IMG/VR virus record: IMGVR_UViG_3300047462_000068
Coordinates: 1 to 31,924 of that record
Length of the DNA: 31,924 bases
Strand: one strand, 5' to 3'
Source: a virus
Shown here: one piece after another, positions 5,607 through 29,455 of the stretch
Layout: every line of letters begins with the position of its first letter
Numbering within the stretch: the first letter of the stretch is position 1
The notes under the pieces: generated by a model
Told to the model about the DNA's origin: nothing
Seen by the model: only the letters and a program-made list of their open reading frames with translations
The model's database searches: none
Position numbers and translations under genes: made by a program

Positions 5607-6326
5607 TTATGCGCGGCCGATGCGCTTGGCGGTCGGGAAGCGTTTGTCGAAATCGTCTGCGTTGAGGGCGGCGTCGGATGCGATCCGGTTGCCGTTGGCG
5701 GCCGCGCCGGGGAGCGGCTGCGCCTTCAGGACGGCTGACAGGGCAGCGACCGGAAGACCTTCCATTCCATCGACGCCCAGGGTCTTGAGCGCGTGCCGAA
5801 GGATTTCCTCGGCGGAGTCCATGACAGCCAGCTTGCCGACCCACGGTTCGACCGTGCGCTCGGCGGTGCGGGCTGCACGGAGACGCTCGATGGTCTTCGT
5901 CTCAGCCTCCTGGACGGCCACCTTGAGAGCGGCGTCCATCGCGGCCTTGGTGACCTTTTCGGCTTCCTCGGTGGCGGACTTGGCAACGGGAGGAACGACA
6001 ACGGCGTCGGCTTCCTTGACCACGGGCTCGGCAACAACATCGTCGGCGACGACCGGAGTGCAGAGAGCGGTAATGGCGGCGATCATTTCCGGTGTCGCCG
6101 CTTCGCCGAGGATCGCCTTGATCTTCGTGGTGATCTCGTCGTCGTCGGTGGCTGCGGGAACGACCGTCGTCACCGGCTCGGCGGGCTCCGCCGGATCTGC
6201 CTCGAGGACTTCGAGCAGGTCGATGATGTCGCTGAGTTCGGCGTCCTGTGCGATGAGGCCGCGAAGGGCGGTGCTCAGAGTGTTCCTGGCCGCCATGGCA
6301 GCGCGAGGAAGGATTTTCTTCGCCAT
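5607..6326 (-). CDS. Nested in-frame scaffold protein (internal start)
   Basis: Inside the protease gene, ATG 6326 (codon 203) has a strong AGGAGA 8 nt upstream, as good as any gene start here. It would yield a 239-residue protein starting MAKKILPRAA that contains only the helical scaffold region. This repeats the lambda C/Nu3 arrangement, where one gene gives protease-scaffold and scaffold alone. The start site is visible; production of the short form is inferred. Confidence 0.55.
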   Translation of the reverse strand: MAKKILPRAAMAARNTLSTALRGLIAQDAELSDIIDLLEVLEADPAEPAEPVTTVVPAATDDDEITTKIKAILGEAATPEMIAAITALCTPVVADDVVAEPVVKEADAVVVPPVAKSATEEAEKVTKAAMDAALKVAVQEAETKTIERLRAARTAERTVEPWVGKLAVMDSAEEILRHALKTLGVDGMEGLPVAALSAVLKAQPLPGAAANGNRIASDAALNADDFDKRFPTAKRIGRA

Positions 6327-6932
6327 GTGGCGGATCTCCTGTTTGAGTTGGATTGCTTCTTGAATGGCGGCATCGCCGACCATGACGTCCGGACCTGCGC
6401 GGCCCCGCTCGACGATGGCGACATGATTTCCAACGATGGAGACCATCCGGCCGTCGAAGTGTTCGCCGCCGACATCCCCGGGGGTCATGTCGGCAGTGAA
6501 GTAGTACGCCGACGAGATTTCCCGCTGGCCGCCGCTCTCGATGTCCCGGATCGCGGTGGCGTCCCAGATCACCATTGAGTTCTTGAGATACGGGGCGTCG
6601 AACTCCGCATCGGTCCCCGTGGCGCCGATGACCGCCTGCTTCTGCGGCTCACCGGCGTTGACGGGGACGTGCCTGTTGAGCACCTGCACCAGGTTGAATG
6701 TCGGTGCGGCCTTCGTCAGTTCCTCGGGATCCCGGTAGAGCTGGTAGACCTTCTTCGGATCCAGCCCGAGCGCCTCGCAGTCGGGGATTTCCGATCCCTG
6801 GTATCCGCAGATGTTCGATTTCGAGATCGCCGTGACGGCGACATGCAGGCGGCCGTCCGCGTCTTTTGAGCGGACCGAGATGGAGGCGCGGTCAAACGCC
6901 ATCCGGTCACCGCTAGGCGTCGAAGTTGCCAT
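5607..6932 (-). CDS. Prohead protease (DUF2213) with C-terminal scaffold region
   Basis: A 441-residue protein starting at ATG 6932 behind GAGGA. The first 190 residues match DUF2213, an HK97-type prohead serine protease relative: candidate catalytic His 88 (NRHVPV), Ser 140/141 (REISSAYYF) and His 170 (GNHVAIV). The rest (about 200-441) is Ala/Glu/Lys-rich and helical, like an assembly scaffold, with an acidic Val/Pro linker. This fused protease-scaffold layout is known in several phages; the scaffold part is expected to be cleaved during maturation. An internal start at codon 203 probably makes free scaffold. Catalytic residues are assigned by motif only. Confidence 0.8.
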   Translation of the reverse strand: MATSTPSGDRMAFDRASISVRSKDADGRLHVAVTAISKSNICGYQGSEIPDCEALGLDPKKVYQLYRDPEELTKAAPTFNLVQVLNRHVPVNAGEPQKQAVIGATGTDAEFDAPYLKNSMVIWDATAIRDIESGGQREISSAYYFTADMTPGDVGGEHFDGRMVSIVGNHVAIVERGRAGPDVMVGDAAIQEAIQLKQEIRHMAKKILPRAAMAARNTLSTALRGLIAQDAELSDIIDLLEVLEADPAEPAEPVTTVVPAATDDDEITTKIKAILGEAATPEMIAAITALCTPVVADDVVAEPVVKEADAVVVPPVAKSATEEAEKVTKAAMDAALKVAVQEAETKTIERLRAARTAERTVEPWVGKLAVMDSAEEILRHALKTLGVDGMEGLPVAALSAVLKAQPLPGAAANGNRIASDAALNADDFDKRFPTAKRIGRA

Positions 6933-10837: not shown

Positions 10838-11417
10838 CGGTCTTCTCCATCTCCCGGAGAGCCGCCCGAATGCGTTCAGCGGCAGCGCCCGTGTCCGCCG
10901 GAACTTCGCCCTGCGGCCAGAGACCGAGATACTGTCCGAGCTTGTCGAGAGCCTTCGTGCGGTCCGCGAGATCGACGGAGACCATCACACCGGGCTTCAC
11001 ATCCTTTTCGGTGACTTCGAGCACCTGACCGGCGGGATTGTATTTCGTCTTGCGTTCCCGGATCTCAGGTGTCCGTGCAGTCTTGATCTTGATGACCAGC
11101 TTGCGCTGCATCGGCGTCAGCGTGGTGCTGTCGTGCAGGATTACACCGTCCGGACCCCACACGCCGATGTCGTCGGGGTCATAGAAGGCGATGTTTGCCA
11201 GTTCGCGGATGACGCGTTCCGAGGTGACGTTGGTTCGCCGCGAAAGCTCGGCTTTGCCGCGTTCTACCGCGTCCTCGACATCCTTGTCTGCCATCAGGAC
11301 GTGAGCGACCTGGCGGGCGGACCGGACGCTGTAACCTGCCCGGATTGCCGCCGCTGACGCGCAAAGGTCGACAAGGAATTCTTCAACGAACCTTTGCTTT
11401 TTCAGTGAAAGCGCCAT
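10776..11417 (-). CDS. Terminase small subunit
   Basis: The start is ATG 11417 (MALSLKKQRFVEEFLVD) with AAGGGGGA upstream; longer frames read through a terminator-like hairpin. The 213-residue product has the terminase_2 pattern: KQRFVEEFL-D, AAIRAGYS-RSARQVAHVLM, a DNA-binding helix-turn-helix at about 8-45, then VIRELANIAFYDPDD in the oligomerisation region. It recognises the packaging site and recruits the large subunit. It overlaps the large subunit gene, a common coupling. Confidence 0.85.
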   Translation of the reverse strand: MALSLKKQRFVEEFLVDLCASAAAIRAGYSVRSARQVAHVLMADKDVEDAVERGKAELSRRTNVTSERVIRELANIAFYDPDDIGVWGPDGVILHDSTTLTPMQRKLVIKIKTARTPEIRERKTKYNPAGQVLEVTEKDVKPGVMVSVDLADRTKALDKLGQYLGLWPQGEVPADTGAAAERIRAALREMEKTVGTALDATGSDTPDAALDPA

Positions 11418-15266: not shown

Positions 15267-15644
15267 TCAGGCGGCTTTCGTCTTCATCGGCGTCGTCCGC
15301 TTGGCGGAGTAGAACAAAGGGTCAGGCTCGCTGGACAGCATGAACTTTGCGGCTTTCACTACGTCCGGCCACAGCCGGTCCCTGGTATCCAGAAACCGGT
15401 TGCCGTGTTCGGAAGCGATGAGTTCTGCGTAAGCGTCCTGCGTCGCATGGCAGCATTTGAAGTGATCGTGCGCCGCGCGGAGCCAGCAAAGCTCGCTTGA
15501 AGAGTATTCCGGCGCGATGATGGCATTCTTGACGGCAGGCAGCCCCTCGCCGTTGACGATCTGGATCAGGCGGATGGCGTTTCGCATGAGAGCCATCGCG
15601 TTATCGACGGTGACCTCTTTATTGCAGTGAAGATAATTGAACAT
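15267..15644 (-). CDS. Unknown protein, short member of tandem paralogue pair
   Basis: A 125-residue protein with AAGGA 9 nt before ATG 15644. From residue 13 on it parallels the upstream product: VDNAMALMRNAIRLIQIVNGEGL versus VDNAIALMRDACRLIQLVNGEGL, then CWLRAAHDHFKCC versus CWVRAAYENFECC, and RDRLWPDV versus RERLWPDI. Shared Cys-Cys and Trp positions suggest a conserved fold. It lacks about 70 C-terminal residues of its paralogue and instead ends in a basic tail (KRTTPMKTKAA). Function unknown. A hairpin follows its stop. Confidence 0.7.
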   Translation of the reverse strand: MFNYLHCNKEVTVDNAMALMRNAIRLIQIVNGEGLPAVKNAIIAPEYSSSELCWLRAAHDHFKCCHATQDAYAELIASEHGNRFLDTRDRLWPDVVKAAKFMLSSEPDPLFYSAKRTTPMKTKAA

Positions 15645-15713: not shown

Positions 15714-16304
15714 TCAGGCTTCGTCTTCGATAGCGATCAAGGGCCAGATCACTTCGCCGTCCGATGTTTCCGTGTGCTCAGCGCGCCACCCCGGCATCTC
15801 GATGTCGAAGATCGCCTCCATTCCGCGGATTTCTTCTCGGACCTTGTCGGCTTTCAGCCACATCAGATCTCTGATGTCCGCGTTCCCAAACCTATCGACC
15901 TCGAACCGGCCCGCAAATTCGACCTCCAGACTGGCGATGTTCTTGCCGTGCTCTTCCGACCGATGGAGAAGTGACTGCGTGACGGAACTTTGTTTCAGAA
16001 TCCACGTCGCCACCTCCACGATATCCGGCCAGAGCCTCTCCCTTGATTCCGAGAACTGCTCGCCAACCTCTGAGAGCATCAGTTCGCCGTAAAAAGCCAA
16101 CGTCTCCGGGCAGCATTCGAAGTTCTCGTAGGCCGCCCTGACCCAGCAAAACTGGTAGGACTCGTAGGTCGGCGCGTGGATAGCTGCCCGGAGGACTTCC
16201 AGCCCCTCGCCGTTGACCAGTTGGATGAGGCGGCAGGCGTCGCGCATCAGCGCAATCGCATTATCGACGGTGGACCCTTCGATGTAGCTCGAAAACGTAT
16301 TCAT
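15714..16304 (-). CDS. Unknown protein, long member of tandem paralogue pair
   Basis: I choose ATG 16304 (MNTFSSYIEGSTVDNA) because it gives the same 16-residue lead before the shared VDNA motif as in the paralogue. A longer frame starting TTG 16382 has coding-like codon use but no ribosome site, so an extra 26 residues are possible. The 196-residue product has the paralogue domain (1-120) and an extra acidic C-terminal region (FAGRFEVDRFGNADIRDL, then GMEAIFDIEMPGWRAE). No family recognised. Its own ribosome site is weak (GGAC). Confidence 0.65.
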   Translation of the reverse strand: MNTFSSYIEGSTVDNAIALMRDACRLIQLVNGEGLEVLRAAIHAPTYESYQFCWVRAAYENFECCPETLAFYGELMLSEVGEQFSESRERLWPDIVEVATWILKQSSVTQSLLHRSEEHGKNIASLEVEFAGRFEVDRFGNADIRDLMWLKADKVREEIRGMEAIFDIEMPGWRAEHTETSDGEVIWPLIAIEDEA

Positions 16305-16461
16305 GGTGGACGTCCAGTTCTGCTCAGGAGCCGGACCCGGTTGGGTGCGGTAGTCCTCTGCGGACCGGTTGAGCACATACAACCGGATTTGTCCAGGGGG
16401 CTAACTCCTCTAAAGTCCGCATTCATCACAGACAGTCCGTTTGATTGGGCGATATTGATTA

Positions 16462-17950: not shown

Positions 17951-18835
17951 GTGGGCGAATTATTTTCGCGGGTGACTTGGCGGCGCTTCCCAGCGGGATA
18001 TCTAGTCCGGGTAGATGGGGCGCACGTGATGTATTGGCGAACAGCGGACGAAAAGAATGCGCGAAAAGATCCGGTAGCGGTGGTAGCAAATTTCTATGTC
18101 GAACGGACCAGGGAGCGGACCTACGATTTCCCGGTGCCTCCTGTGGTGAAAGCGATACACGGCGGCGGCGCCAGTTGGCGCGATCTACCTGAGAGGCCCG
18201 AGCTTACCCGAGAATTTGTCATAAAAGCGGTGGCTGCCGGGATCGGCGCGGTGCATTTGGACGTCACGAGACGGCGCACCCAACTAAAGCTTCCGCTTGA
18301 ACATCCGAACCGGTTTATGGATGAACACCGTTTCCCAGATTACCAGATGTATGAGTTCTACCATTCCGATGACCGCCTGAGCCTGGTGCCTCACTCGCTG
18401 AAGAAGGCAAACGAGTTCGTGGAGCAGTGGCATCGGCACGCCGGAGCTACTGCGTGGAACGGCGGCAAGTTCGCTCTGGCGGCCGAGATCGACAATAGAA
18501 TCGTCGGCGTCGTGATCGTCGGTCGCCCAATCTCTCGCGCTTTGGCGGACAAATGGACGCTGGAGGTTACCCGGCTCTGTGTGAGTCCGATAGCTCCCGA
18601 CAATACGTGCTCGTTCCTGTACTCCGCCGCCAAGCGTGCTTGGCAGGCTCAGGGTGGCAGGAAACTCCTGACCTACACTCTGGCGTCCGAAAGCGGAGGA
18701 AGTCTGCGCGGAGCCGGATGGTATGAGGCGGCCAAGGTGGCGCCCAAGAAAAACGGCTGGAAGTCCGCCACTCGGGACCGAGAATGGAAGGACGTCTACA
18801 GCGAGCCGAAGATCCGCTGGGAAGTCACCTGCTGA
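17951..18835 (+). CDS. XF1762-like (GNAT-fold-like) protein with N-terminal extension
   Basis: A plus-strand protein of up to 294 residues. From about residue 141 it matches the phage/prophage XF1762 family as I know it: LVPHSLKKANEFVEQWHRH, GGKFALAAEI, GVVIVGRPISRAL, WTLEVTRLC, SFLYSAAKRAW and LLTYTL-SESGGSLRGAGW, an acetyltransferase-like fold. The first 135 residues are not part of that family in my memory and look like a separate small domain. Start GTG 17951 has AGGAAG 14 nt upstream, rather far; ATG at the MYWRT codon is another option. Target unknown. Confidence 0.75.
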   Translation: MGELFSRVTWRRFPAGYLVRVDGAHVMYWRTADEKNARKDPVAVVANFYVERTRERTYDFPVPPVVKAIHGGGASWRDLPERPELTREFVIKAVAAGIGAVHLDVTRRRTQLKLPLEHPNRFMDEHRFPDYQMYEFYHSDDRLSLVPHSLKKANEFVEQWHRHAGATAWNGGKFALAAEIDNRIVGVVIVGRPISRALADKWTLEVTRLCVSPIAPDNTCSFLYSAAKRAWQAQGGRKLLTYTLASESGGSLRGAGWYEAAKVAPKKNGWKSATRDREWKDVYSEPKIRWEVTC

Positions 18836-19733: not shown

Positions 19734-20045
19734 TTAGCGCGCCGTCCACCTCTTGGGCGGCGTCCAGCCGATGGCCTTCTCATGCTCCCGCAACCGACGG
19801 CGGACATCCGCGAGGGCGGCGCGCCAGGTGGCGTGGGTTTCCTCGCAGAAGCGGCGGCCGAAAGGCCGGGCGACGTGAACCGAGTAGCGGTCGCCTTTAT
19901 AGATGGTCAGCTGGAAGCCATCGCATTCCGCCGTCACGTCGTCGCCGAAGCGGCTCTCGGCGAACAGACCGGCGGCGTTGAGGTCCGTGATTGCCTTGAT
20001 GATCCAGGGTGCAGTTCGGAGCCCATCATCCAGTATATCTGTCAT
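19734..20045 (-). CDS. Small unknown protein coupled to the M16 peptidase gene
   Basis: ATG 20045 has an excellent GGAGGG 5 nt upstream and lies 13 nt after the peptidase stop, so both are one operon. The 103-residue product: acidic helical start (MTDILDDGLRTAPWIIKAI), then VTAECDGFQLTIYKGDRYSVHVARP, a beta pattern, and a basic helical end (ALADVRRRLREHEKAIGW). No family recognised. It could be a partner, inhibitor or adaptor of the peptidase; only the operon suggests this. Confidence 0.65.
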   Translation of the reverse strand: MTDILDDGLRTAPWIIKAITDLNAAGLFAESRFGDDVTAECDGFQLTIYKGDRYSVHVARPFGRRFCEETHATWRAALADVRRRLREHEKAIGWTPPKRWTAR

Positions 20046-20058
20046 GGATTCCCTCCTA

Positions 20059-21333
20059 TCAAACCGCCCTGCTGAGCATCGCAAAGTAATCCTTGTTACC
20101 GATTGGACCGGCTAATCCGATGCTGGGTGCGGATTTGAAGATCATTTCCGCAGCGGCGTAGAGATCACCCTTCGTCACGGCCATGATCTTCTCGCGCTCG
20201 GCATCGAGGTCGAGGATCTCACCTGATACGAACACCCCCGAGACGATTGCGCTCCCCAGTGAAAAGGGCCGCTCTCGAGCGAATGCATTGCTGACCAATT
20301 CTCCGTTGCGCGCCCGCTCGAAATCATCGTCGGCAATAGACTGACGTGCCGCGTTGAACACGCCCATCGACACGCCCAGAACCTCGTCGAGATTGTCTGG
20401 CGTCATTCCGGCATTTAAGTTGAACGATCCATAGTCCGGACCAGCTTCCATAAACGACGACACAGAATAGACGAGGCCGCGCTTCTCGCGGACTTCCTGG
20501 AACAAGGGAGACGACATACCGCCGCCGATGGCCGAAGCCAGCATCCGGTGCGCGTAGAAGTTGCTGTCGGCTTGCGATACTGATTTCCAGCCGACATAGG
20601 CGGTGACCTGTTCGAACTTGCTCGACGTCACCCCCCCGTATCCGCCGCCCCATACCGCAGGCTGACGATGATAGGCCACCGGTGCGGTCCGAAGATCGCG
20701 GAAATGCTTGTTCACTTGATCGACAAAGCGAGCGTGCTCGATATTTCCGGCGCCCAAGACGATCATGTCCTGCGTCGTGTAAAACCGGTCGACGAACGAG
20801 GTAAAGTTCTCCCGCTTCGCCGTCCTGATGAATTCGGATGGCCCTAGAATGCAGCGACCGAGAGCCTGATCGGGGAACGCCTGTTGCGCATACTGCCAGT
20901 AAGCCGTGTCGCCCGCATCATCGTTGGCGCAGCTGATTTCCTGACAGATGACCTCCGACTCGCAATCGATCTCCTCCTGGTCGTAGAGAGAATTGCTGCA
21001 AATGTCGCCCAAGACTTCGACCGAGCAATCTGCGGTGCTGTCGAGACCGATGACGTAATAGGCAGTCATGTCCTGAGTGGTAAACGCGTTGATATCGGAG
21101 CCAAGCTTTTCCACCTGGGCGGAAATCTGGAGTGCCGAGCGTCCGGTTGTTCCCTTGAACGCCATGTGTTCGAGGAAGTGCGCGATGCCGTTTTCGTCGG
21201 GATTTTCATCGCGCGATCCGCGCTGGACGAAGGCGCCGACGGCAGCGGAGCGCATCGTTGGAATATGGGCGGTGATAACACGCAGGCCGGATTCAAGTGT
21301 CGTAATCTTTACGGTGGTCTGCACATCTTTCAT
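20059..21333 (-). CDS. M16-family zinc metallopeptidase
   Basis: The start is ATG 21333. The 424-residue protein has the inverted zinc motif HFLEH (H52, E55, H56) and the third ligand E132 in SEVICQEI, exactly 75 residues after H56, as in M16B processing peptidases. The C-terminal domain has SPLFQEVREKRGLVYSVSSF (about 290-310), the other hallmark. So it looks catalytically intact, with two homologous halves of about 210 residues each. No signal peptide is visible, so action in the cytoplasm is likely. M16 enzymes cut peptides and presequences. They are very unusual in phages. Substrate unknown. Confidence 0.9.
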   Translation of the reverse strand: MKDVQTTVKITTLESGLRVITAHIPTMRSAAVGAFVQRGSRDENPDENGIAHFLEHMAFKGTTGRSALQISAQVEKLGSDINAFTTQDMTAYYVIGLDSTADCSVEVLGDICSNSLYDQEEIDCESEVICQEISCANDDAGDTAYWQYAQQAFPDQALGRCILGPSEFIRTAKRENFTSFVDRFYTTQDMIVLGAGNIEHARFVDQVNKHFRDLRTAPVAYHRQPAVWGGGYGGVTSSKFEQVTAYVGWKSVSQADSNFYAHRMLASAIGGGMSSPLFQEVREKRGLVYSVSSFMEAGPDYGSFNLNAGMTPDNLDEVLGVSMGVFNAARQSIADDDFERARNGELVSNAFARERPFSLGSAIVSGVFVSGEILDLDAEREKIMAVTKGDLYAAAEMIFKSAPSIGLAGPIGNKDYFAMLSRAV

Positions 21334-21363: not shown

Positions 21364-21402
21364 ATAATACTCCGTCCGTCCGCCGGATCCCGAGGAAGTC
21401 GA
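21364..21402 (-). promoter_or_regulatory. Promoter-like element, GACTTCCT class, copy 3
   Basis: Minus strand: CGACTTCCTCGGGATCC, then TATTAT (21364-21369) 23 nt after CTTCCT. The best -10 of the family with copy 5. The M16 peptidase start is 31 nt past the hexamer. Confidence 0.7.
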
Positions 21403-21423
21403 AGCCAATTACTCTGGCGCCTC

Positions 21424-22368
21424 TCAGTCGGGGTCGGAGAACTTCATCGCGGAGATCCGCGCCAGCTGGCGGTCTTCGATATGCGGCTTGCGCGCTGCAA
21501 GGGCCGCAAGCACTTCAGACTTGGAGAGGCCCATCCTGTTGGCGACATCCCGGAGCGGCAGCTGGTGATCATGCACGAGCGACCACGCGGTGGCAGGGAC
21601 CGCATCCGGCTCCGGGATAGCTTTAATGGACGCCTTTGACGGCTTCGGTGCCTTTTTGACGGCATCCCATTCAGCTTGGCGGGTTGCTGTGTCTGCCGTC
21701 GGCGGCGTCACCACAGCGGCCGGGATCGGCGGGGCGGCGTCGGGGATGGTTACCGCGACCACATCTTTGCCGCCGTCCCAAGAGGCGCGCGCGGCGTCGA
21801 GAGACACATACTGCCGCTTGGTGACGGGCGTCTGCCGGGAAGGCGCGCTGACAGATTGCTGAACGGGTTGCGGTGCCGCAACGGCGGGCGTCACCGCGGT
21901 GGTAGCCACGGCAACCCAGGATACCCGCGCCTTCGCTCGCTCCTTCGCCTGCCGCACCTGCTCCTCGTACGCCTGCGTCAAAGCGGCGACCTCATCCGCG
22001 ACGGACTTCTCGAGTTCGGCAGCTTCCCGCTTGGCAGCTCCCCGAGCATTGATTGCGGCGATCTTCGTATCCCGGTCCGCTTCAATCGCGGTGATCTTGA
22101 CCTGGGTGGAGGCCCGGATCACGGCGATCTCCTTGTCAGCGCGAACCGTCACCCGCTGAATTTGCTCCTCGTCCGACCGACCACGGGCACCCGACTTCAC
22201 CGGATCGCCGTCTGCGAAGGCCGTCCGAACAATGCGGTATGCGGCATCAAGCTGGATCCCGAACTTCGCCGCGATCTCCTTGGCGGTCGCCCCGGCAGCG
22301 GCCATCGCGCGCCCCTCGGCATACTGCGCCGTCGTCAGGCGGGGGCGTTTCTTTTTGTGTTCAGTCAT
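21424..22368 (-). CDS. Protein with two helix-turn-helix segments and a coiled coil
   Basis: The start is ATG 22368 (MTEHKKKRPRLTTAQ). The 314-residue protein has a basic N-terminus and an HTH at about 22-48 (AMAAAGATAKEIAAKFGI, then AAYRIVR). A long charged coiled coil follows at about 65-155 with many Lys/Glu/Arg. A Pro/Ala/Val-rich linker comes next (about 160-265). A second HTH at 270-293 (LPLRDVANRMGLSKSEVLAALA) ends the protein. It probably binds DNA as a dimer and may bridge two sites. It is a candidate regulator of the repeated promoter elements here; this is a guess. No family name is given. Confidence 0.7.
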   Translation of the reverse strand: MTEHKKKRPRLTTAQYAEGRAMAAAGATAKEIAAKFGIQLDAAYRIVRTAFADGDPVKSGARGRSDEEQIQRVTVRADKEIAVIRASTQVKITAIEADRDTKIAAINARGAAKREAAELEKSVADEVAALTQAYEEQVRQAKERAKARVSWVAVATTAVTPAVAAPQPVQQSVSAPSRQTPVTKRQYVSLDAARASWDGGKDVVAVTIPDAAPPIPAAVVTPPTADTATRQAEWDAVKKAPKPSKASIKAIPEPDAVPATAWSLVHDHQLPLRDVANRMGLSKSEVLAALAARKPHIEDRQLARISAMKFSDPD

Positions 22369-22372
22369 CGTC

Positions 22373-22475: not shown

Positions 22476-23297
22476 ATGGAAACGTTCGTCGGCTTCGACA
22501 GCGCGTGGATGGGTAACGTCAAGGCGCCGGGTGCCATCTGCGCGGTGACTATGGAGGACGGCGCCCCGGTCCGGTGGCATCCGCCGGTGCTGGTCGGCTT
22601 CGATCAGGCGCTCACCTTCATCACCGACGTCACCCGCGGCAGCCGCTACAGCCTGGTCGCTCTCGACCAGCCGACGGTCGTCCCCAATCTCACAAGCAAC
22701 CGCCCGGTAGAGCGGCTTGCTGGATCCCTGGTGGCCTGGAACGGTGGGGGCACCCAGAGCAGCAATCGCGGGCGGCTGGGCATGTTCTGCGCCGCCTCGC
22801 CGATCTGGGGCTTCCTGCGCTCCCTGGGCGCCATCGAAGACCCCGAGGCTGCCAGGACAGCTACGGACGGCTTGTATCTCGTGGAGACCTACCCGGCTGC
22901 CGCCCTGCCGACGCTGGCGGCGTCCAGTTTCGGGCGGCTGGCGGCGCTGAAATACAATCCGAAGCCGAGATCCAAGTTCCGTCCGGACGACTGGATCACG
23001 GTTGCCACCGCAGCGCAGGCGGAGTCCCTGTCACTGGGATGCGCCGACGTTGCCGACTGGTGCGTTACGGCTGCCGGGATCCCGAAGGTTGTCAAAGCGG
23101 ACCAAGACAAGCTGGATGCCGTGATCTGCGTGCTGGTGGCGATTCGGTGGCGTCTCCGTCCCAGGACGAACAGCGTCATGCTGGGCGACTTGGTGACCGG
23201 CTACATGGTCATCCCGGCAAGCCCGGACGTCGGAGCCTACTTGACGGCGGCCGTGAAGGATAAGGGCGTGCCGATTGACGGGCAGGTTCCGGTGTAA
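22476..23297 (+). CDS. DUF429-like predicted RNase H-fold nuclease
   Basis: A plus-strand 273-residue protein, ATG 22476 behind AGGA. It shows the DUF429 layout: first strand FVGFDSAW with Asp 8, SLVALDQPTVVPN, a conserved region with RPVERLAGS and G-G-G-TQSSNRGRLGMF, VETYPAAALPTL, and the last helix KADQDKLDAVICVLVA with acidic residues. This family is predicted to be an RNase H-like nuclease, without a settled substrate. It reads opposite to its neighbours and converges with an XRE gene that begins 1 nt after its stop. Confidence 0.75.
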   Translation: METFVGFDSAWMGNVKAPGAICAVTMEDGAPVRWHPPVLVGFDQALTFITDVTRGSRYSLVALDQPTVVPNLTSNRPVERLAGSLVAWNGGGTQSSNRGRLGMFCAASPIWGFLRSLGAIEDPEAARTATDGLYLVETYPAAALPTLAASSFGRLAALKYNPKPRSKFRPDDWITVATAAQAESLSLGCADVADWCVTAAGIPKVVKADQDKLDAVICVLVAIRWRLRPRTNSVMLGDLVTGYMVIPASPDVGAYLTAAVKDKGVPIDGQVPV

Positions 23298-28127: not shown

Positions 28128-28161
28128 GAAAAAGCCGCCCAAGGATTGCTCCTGGGCGGCT
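28128..28161 (-). terminator. Rho-independent terminator
   Basis: AGCCGCCCA (28153-28161 on minus) pairs with TGGGCGGCT (28133-28141); the stem extends inside through GGA/TCC to a GCAA loop, and TTTTT follows on the minus strand. It ends the unit whose last gene stops at 28188. Confidence 0.8.
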
Positions 28162-29424: not shown

Positions 29425-29455
29425 AAAAGCCGCCCGAGGATTTCTCCCGGGCGGC
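29425..29455 (-). terminator. Rho-independent terminator
   Basis: GCCGCCCG (29429-29436) pairs with CGGGCGGC (29448-29455), with GAG/CTC in the loop; TTTTCTTTCT follows on the minus strand. It ends the gene at 29482. Confidence 0.75.

Follow-up and report, generated by a model that had tools for sequence, protein, structure and literature searches.

An M16B-type zinc peptidase gene in an exchangeable cassette of a small tailed-phage record

Introduction

For prokaryotic M16B peptidases, the physiological substrates are poorly defined (PMC12731061). A useful reference is BHP (BH2405, PDB 3hdi), a homodimeric M16B enzyme encoded by a chromosomal gene of the bacterium Bacillus halodurans. M16 peptidases acting on host peptides have been described in rhizobia, namely HrrP, which is encoded on an accessory plasmid, and SapA, which belongs to the core genome (PMC8175422). 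HrrP resembles the peptidase described here in being an M16 enzyme carried by a mobile element (PMC8175422); however, it is a fusion of two halves whose targets are plant peptides, and neither HrrP nor SapA is phage-borne. Phage-borne M16 is itself already known: gp2 of phage G, annotated as a 'zinc-dependent peptidase', is likewise a phage-encoded single-chain M16 protein with an HxxEH motif, but it belongs to a Bacillus jumbo phage, adjoins the terminase and shares only 24-30% identity with our protein. In a comparative study of jumbo phages, patchily distributed peptidases were considered likely to be host-directed (PMC7824862). With respect to the exchange of phage genes, promoter-early-stem-loops (PeSLs) of T4-type phages mediate gene shuffling, according to work cited in PMC4503421.

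Here we analyze an M16 gene on a 31,924-base stretch of viral DNA, hereafter the window. What is notable about this phage M16B is the small size of the record, its probable origin from an accessory lineage and its cassette setting. A phage M16 gene with intact catalytic residues, at a site that is otherwise filled in a sister phage, offers a compact way to study a function in infection, and the promoter-like element at the borders of the swap provides a testable account of accessory-gene exchange in this phage group.

Results

The window is a tailed phage with a likely Acetobacterales-type host

The window is a complete IMG/VR virus record, which is linear and probably represents a partial genome. 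The genes for the small and large terminase, the portal and a Mu F-like head protein all lie on one strand, together with those for a DUF2213 head-maturation protease, the major capsid protein and neck and tail proteins. The contig is thus a genuine tailed phage; the possibility that it is contaminating bacterial chromosome, which would have undermined the sequence-only reading, is ruled out by the full set of packaging and head genes and by the existence of a close viral relative. No tyrosine integrase (PF00589) was found in the record. Komagataeibacter phages phiKX1 and phiKX2 are among those with the closest isolate terminases (41%). A phage exonuclease-like protein has relatives in a single bacterial order, that of G025, where 39 of the 299 genomes sampled contain one; the order's name, Acetobacterales, was taken from the named relatives. 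Based on these two similarities, the host is likely to be of the Acetobacterales type (acetic-acid-type bacteria).

Table 1. Features of the window and of sister phage L119 (coordinates refer to the window unless L119 is named)
Feature	Position	Strand	Remarks
DUF2213 head-maturation protease (the phage's own virion protease)	5607..6932	-	phrog_2229
Mom-like DNA-modification gene	17951..18835	+	cassette absent from L119
Small gene	19734..20045	-	103-aa product; 13 nt downstream of M16; 78% conserved in M16-less L119
Exchanged segment	20007..21381	.	replaced in L119 by 10839-11205, encoding a different 99-aa ORF
M16B zinc peptidase gene	20059..21333	-	424 aa; ATG at 21333, stop at 20059; zinc site H52/E55/H56/E132; R282/Y289 pair
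Promoter-like element upstream of M16	21364..21403	-	box TTCGACTTCCTCGGGAT (21403-21387); -10-like TATTAT (21369-21364)
Regulator-like gene upstream of M16	21424..22371	-	weak match to phrog_323; 63% identical in L119
DUF429 / PDC-S44 candidate defence gene	22476..23297	+	PADLOC 354 bits; cassette absent from L119
Element copies in the window (box start)	17941, 19727, 21403, 22438, 26249, 28094, 31394	-	
Element copies in L119	1571, 3560, 4571, 6765, 9932, 10817, 12390		

The M16 gene encodes an intact M16B-type protein

The claim that this phage carries an intact M16B-type peptidase is borne out by both M16 domains and the catalytic residues. The open reading frame exists as first described and lies on the minus strand (Table 1). 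An in-frame TTG is present 75 nt 5' of the ATG, but it sits upstream of the promoter-like element, so that the ATG is probably the start. The protein matches PF00675 with 109.9 bits (cut-off 22.3) and PF05193 with 106.9 bits (cut-off 23), which places two M16 domains on a single chain of about 50 kDa, the arrangement of M16B. The HFLEH motif occupies residues 52-56 and supplies the zinc residues H52, E55 and H56, and the family alignment identifies the distal glutamate as E132, offset by 76 from H56, with 75 residues in between, as had been noted from the sequence. The spacing equals that of yeast MPP (H70/H74/E150) and BHP (H46/H50/E126) (PMC12731061). The second-half motif pointed out in the sequence-only reading, SPLFQEVREKRGLVYS, is present from residue 275 and contains R282 and Y289, both of which are conserved in the alignment. 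From their spacing, and by comparison with IDE, we take these residues to be the R/Y pair that is typical of most M16 enzymes and is missing from MPP and from the core proteins of bc1. In total, the protein retains 67 of the 71 columns that are at least 90% conserved in the sampled family, including all the catalytic ones.

Inspection by eye of the N-terminus (MKDVQTTVKITTLESG) revealed no hydrophobic signal sequence, in agreement with the earlier assertion that a signal peptide is lacking. The protein fell far below the cut-offs of the NCBIfam equivalogs YfmH (71 vs 250 bits), YfmF (58 vs 285), PqqF (48 vs 320) and pitrilysin (33 vs 765), and searches against PHROGs and PADLOC gave no match. 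The G+C content of the gene is 0.572, compared with a window mean of 0.623.

The AlphaFold model (pLDDT 91.4, pTM 0.89) shows an M16B fold, with 3hdi (BHP) among the best structure matches (TM 0.89/0.91, rmsd 1.9). The two proteins are alike in length, in having two domains on a single chain, and in the HFLEH motif and distal glutamate at equal spacing, whereas their sequences are only about 31% identical and the dimer of the phage protein is a presumed one. Together, sequence and model support the view that the protein would be an active clam-shell M16B enzyme. A homodimer is expected because only a single M16 match, and hence no partner subunit, was found in the 31,924-base record.

The phage M16 belongs to an accessory lineage

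In a tree of phage and bacterial M16 proteins, the kind of comparison that the sequence-only reading had proposed, the window M16 falls in a clade (support 100/99) with the M16 of one 147-kb virus and with the additional M16 copies found in five Acetobacterales genomes. A split with 100/96 support separates this clade from the housekeeping alphaproteobacterial M16 proteins; thus, the phage protein does not group with the canonical chromosomal enzymes. It is sister to the remainder of its clade on a long branch (1.53 changes per column), which makes its exact position within the clade less certain. The genomes that contain the accessory paralog also have a second, more typical M16 (G249, G266, G209, G179 and G025), and a housekeeping M16 match is present in 298 of the 299 sampled genomes of the likely host order. 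The accessory paralogs (L021/G025, L123, L125, L126 and L127) share 40-45% identity with the phage protein but are found on chromosome-like contigs amid ordinary bacterial genes, such as valS-, lexA-, accC-, purF- and radA-type ORFs (translations judged by eye). The closest viral relative (L002, 45% identity) is encoded on the 147-kb IMG/VR record, which has a terminase match, is much larger than the window and contains ParB- and replication-like genes. Apart from M16, none of the window proteins matched the stretch of this record that was examined. Those M16 proteins of huge phages that were placed in the tree form two separate viral clades. Transfer from a bacterium to the phage is the simpler reading, and the gene would then derive from an accessory, non-housekeeping Acetobacterales lineage.

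M16 genes recur in large phages and are unusual in small ones

M16 matches were detected in 24 of 50,697 phage records. At least two of those inspected resemble bacterial contamination, and phage G gp2 is the clear true case. The records of Acinetobacter phage MD-2021a (L146) and Microcystis phage MaAM05 (L143) were rejected as phage evidence: their M16 genes lie amid ordinary-looking bacterial genes, and both records are likely to reflect contamination or mislabelling. A scan of IMG/VR with an M16 alignment produced at least 47 loci, many of them on contigs of 100-580 kb. Terminase matches were obtained for 7 of 19 and 12 of 17 tested M16 records, although the terminase profile also matched most control genomes, and such a match is therefore supporting evidence only. 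Terminase-positive records include L003 (415 kb), L005 (336 kb), L010 (561 kb) and L017 (424 kb), as well as L164, L175 and L178 (all >500 kb); their M16 proteins are 32-39% identical to that of the window but belong to large genomes, and the gene contexts in L003 and L005 are phage-like as judged by eye. No other clearly small phage with M16 was found among the matches, in which short contigs may be fragments. A literature search on huge phages and peptidase M16 found no paper, which does not exclude that one exists. The statement that phages rarely carry M16 enzymes therefore holds for small phages but not for jumbo or huge phages, in which these genes are recurrent; an M16 gene in a small phage is unusual, though with precedent in giant phages.

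M16 occupies a swappable cassette

Among close relatives, only the sister phage L119 is known to lack M16, none having been found in its 26-kb record. The early-type regions of L119 and the window are in large part shared, and most of the shared proteins are 63-100% identical. At the exact site of M16, between conserved flanks, L119 carries the 99-aa ORF (Table 1). M16 is therefore accessory phage cargo (a moron) in a swappable cassette, rather than a core gene. Its coupling to the small downstream gene, which had been claimed from the sequence, stands as far as position is concerned. However, the small gene is unlikely to be a functional partner of M16, since L119 keeps it without M16; searches of Pfam, PHROGs and NCBIfam with the small gene gave no family match. 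Elsewhere in the window, the paralogous neighbours at 15267-15644 and 15714-16382 (both on the minus strand) each match the L119 counterpart of the other, with about 53-55% protein identity.

A promoter-like element lies at the borders of exchanged genes

The M16 gene is preceded by a member of a class of promoter-like elements consisting of a box with consensus TCGACTTCCTGAGGTT, a stretch of about 16-17 nt and a -10-like hexamer. The window and L119 contain seven copies each, all in gene sense; 19 of 20 Markov shuffles contained no copy and the other contained one. The model of the element was trained without the two M16-site copies, and the remaining copies fit it by construction. The M16 copy had been called the best promoter-like element of its class. 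The class does exist and the -10 of this copy is joint-best (TATTAT, 5/6), but its upstream box is the weakest, and a generic sigma-70 scan over 17.0-24.5 kb found no site.

The border of the swap between M16 and the L119 ORF falls inside the element. Moreover, breakpoints between the window and L119 are located at four of the seven window copies, against an expectation of 0.31 (a fraction of 0.0002 of the circular shifts reached as many), and at 4/5 gene starts with an element compared with 1/25 without (Fisher p = 0.0009), statistics that are indicative, as the distance limits were set after viewing the data and a single pair of phages was compared.

Discussion

The reading that we favour, which as a whole we judge to have about an even chance of being right, is that M16 is a moron-borne cytoplasmic M16B peptidasome that acts against a small peptide of the host or of a rival element and whose gene was swapped in at the promoter-like element. 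The gene would have been captured from the accessory lineage that circulates in Acetobacterales and would have entered the phage by a swap at a cassette site within the element. The same element would drive transcription of M16 and of the small downstream gene. Each chain would provide the zinc site and the R/Y pair, and two copies, paired as a homodimeric clam shell ('peptidasome'), would close around small or unfolded peptides in the cytoplasm and cut them. Action on a small cytoplasmic peptide, as first proposed from the sequence, is plausible. The likeliest role would be to destroy or trim a small peptide of the host or of a rival element during infection, in counter-defence or host takeover, and not to build the virion; we favour such a target because of the conflict-type neighbouring cassettes, which carry the Mom-like and the PDC-S44 genes, and the patchy occurrence of M16. 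Several points speak against this reading: the protein has no match in PADLOC, its branch is long, so that its specificity may have drifted, and L119 is the sole close relative known without M16. A more specific version, in which M16 degrades a particular bacterial defence or antitoxin peptide and the element guides swaps at the exchangeable site of conflict genes where M16 is carried, seems to us unlikely.

It is also conceivable, though unlikely, that M16 serves an auxiliary metabolic or housekeeping role, boosting general peptide turnover so that amino acids are recycled from host protein without any specific target. In vitro, bacterial M16B peptidasomes cleave many peptides, and they have been assigned to a peptide-degrading class (PMC12731061), and the chromosomal accessory paralogs, too, are without an evident specific partner gene. 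On the other hand, nearly all the sampled host-order genomes already possess a housekeeping M16, and a patchy cassette copy of a different lineage would be less expected under general turnover. The gene might instead be a transient passenger, recently acquired and intact, on which selection is not yet, or no longer, acting. Its absence from the sole close sister phage, its low G+C content and its long branch would fit such a history, but all catalytic residues have been retained despite that branch, 424 codons remain in frame and the gene is located behind an element of the phage's own class, and we consider this quite improbable.

Proteolysis is common during virion maturation, and the position of phage G gp2 beside the large terminase makes a virion-related role imaginable in other phages. 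In the phage studied here, however, M16 is situated in the accessory early-type region outside the head module, a dedicated DUF2213 head-maturation protease is encoded, and M16 was found neither in L119 nor in the records, possibly incomplete, of two relatives that share the head module (L102 and L104). Because of the phage's own protease and these M16-less relatives, the processing of a structural protein by M16, which the sequence-only reading had entertained, is very unlikely. We regard as highly improbable, too, that M16 matures a phage-encoded peptide, such as the 103-aa protein encoded just downstream, in the way that AlbE/AlbF, a known M16B maturation pair, act on bacteriocins (PMC12731061): the small gene is close to M16 and probably co-transcribed with it, but it has no family match and persists in L119 without the peptidase.

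The putative role of the element in gene exchange may be compared with that of the PeSLs of T4-type phages, as they are presented in the source cited above. In both cases repeated promoter-like elements border exchanged genes, here in one pair of phages. The element differs from PeSLs in its sequence and in the phage concerned, and a clear upstream terminator hairpin is present solely at the 28094 copy; a stem-loop was thus rejected as a regular component of the element, most copies being without a hairpin. A 31-nt GCCGCCC/GGGCGGC inverted repeat occurs twice in the window, at 28130-28160 and 29425-29455, with 90% identity between the two; read on the minus strand, the repeat at 28130-28160 resembles a terminator hairpin.
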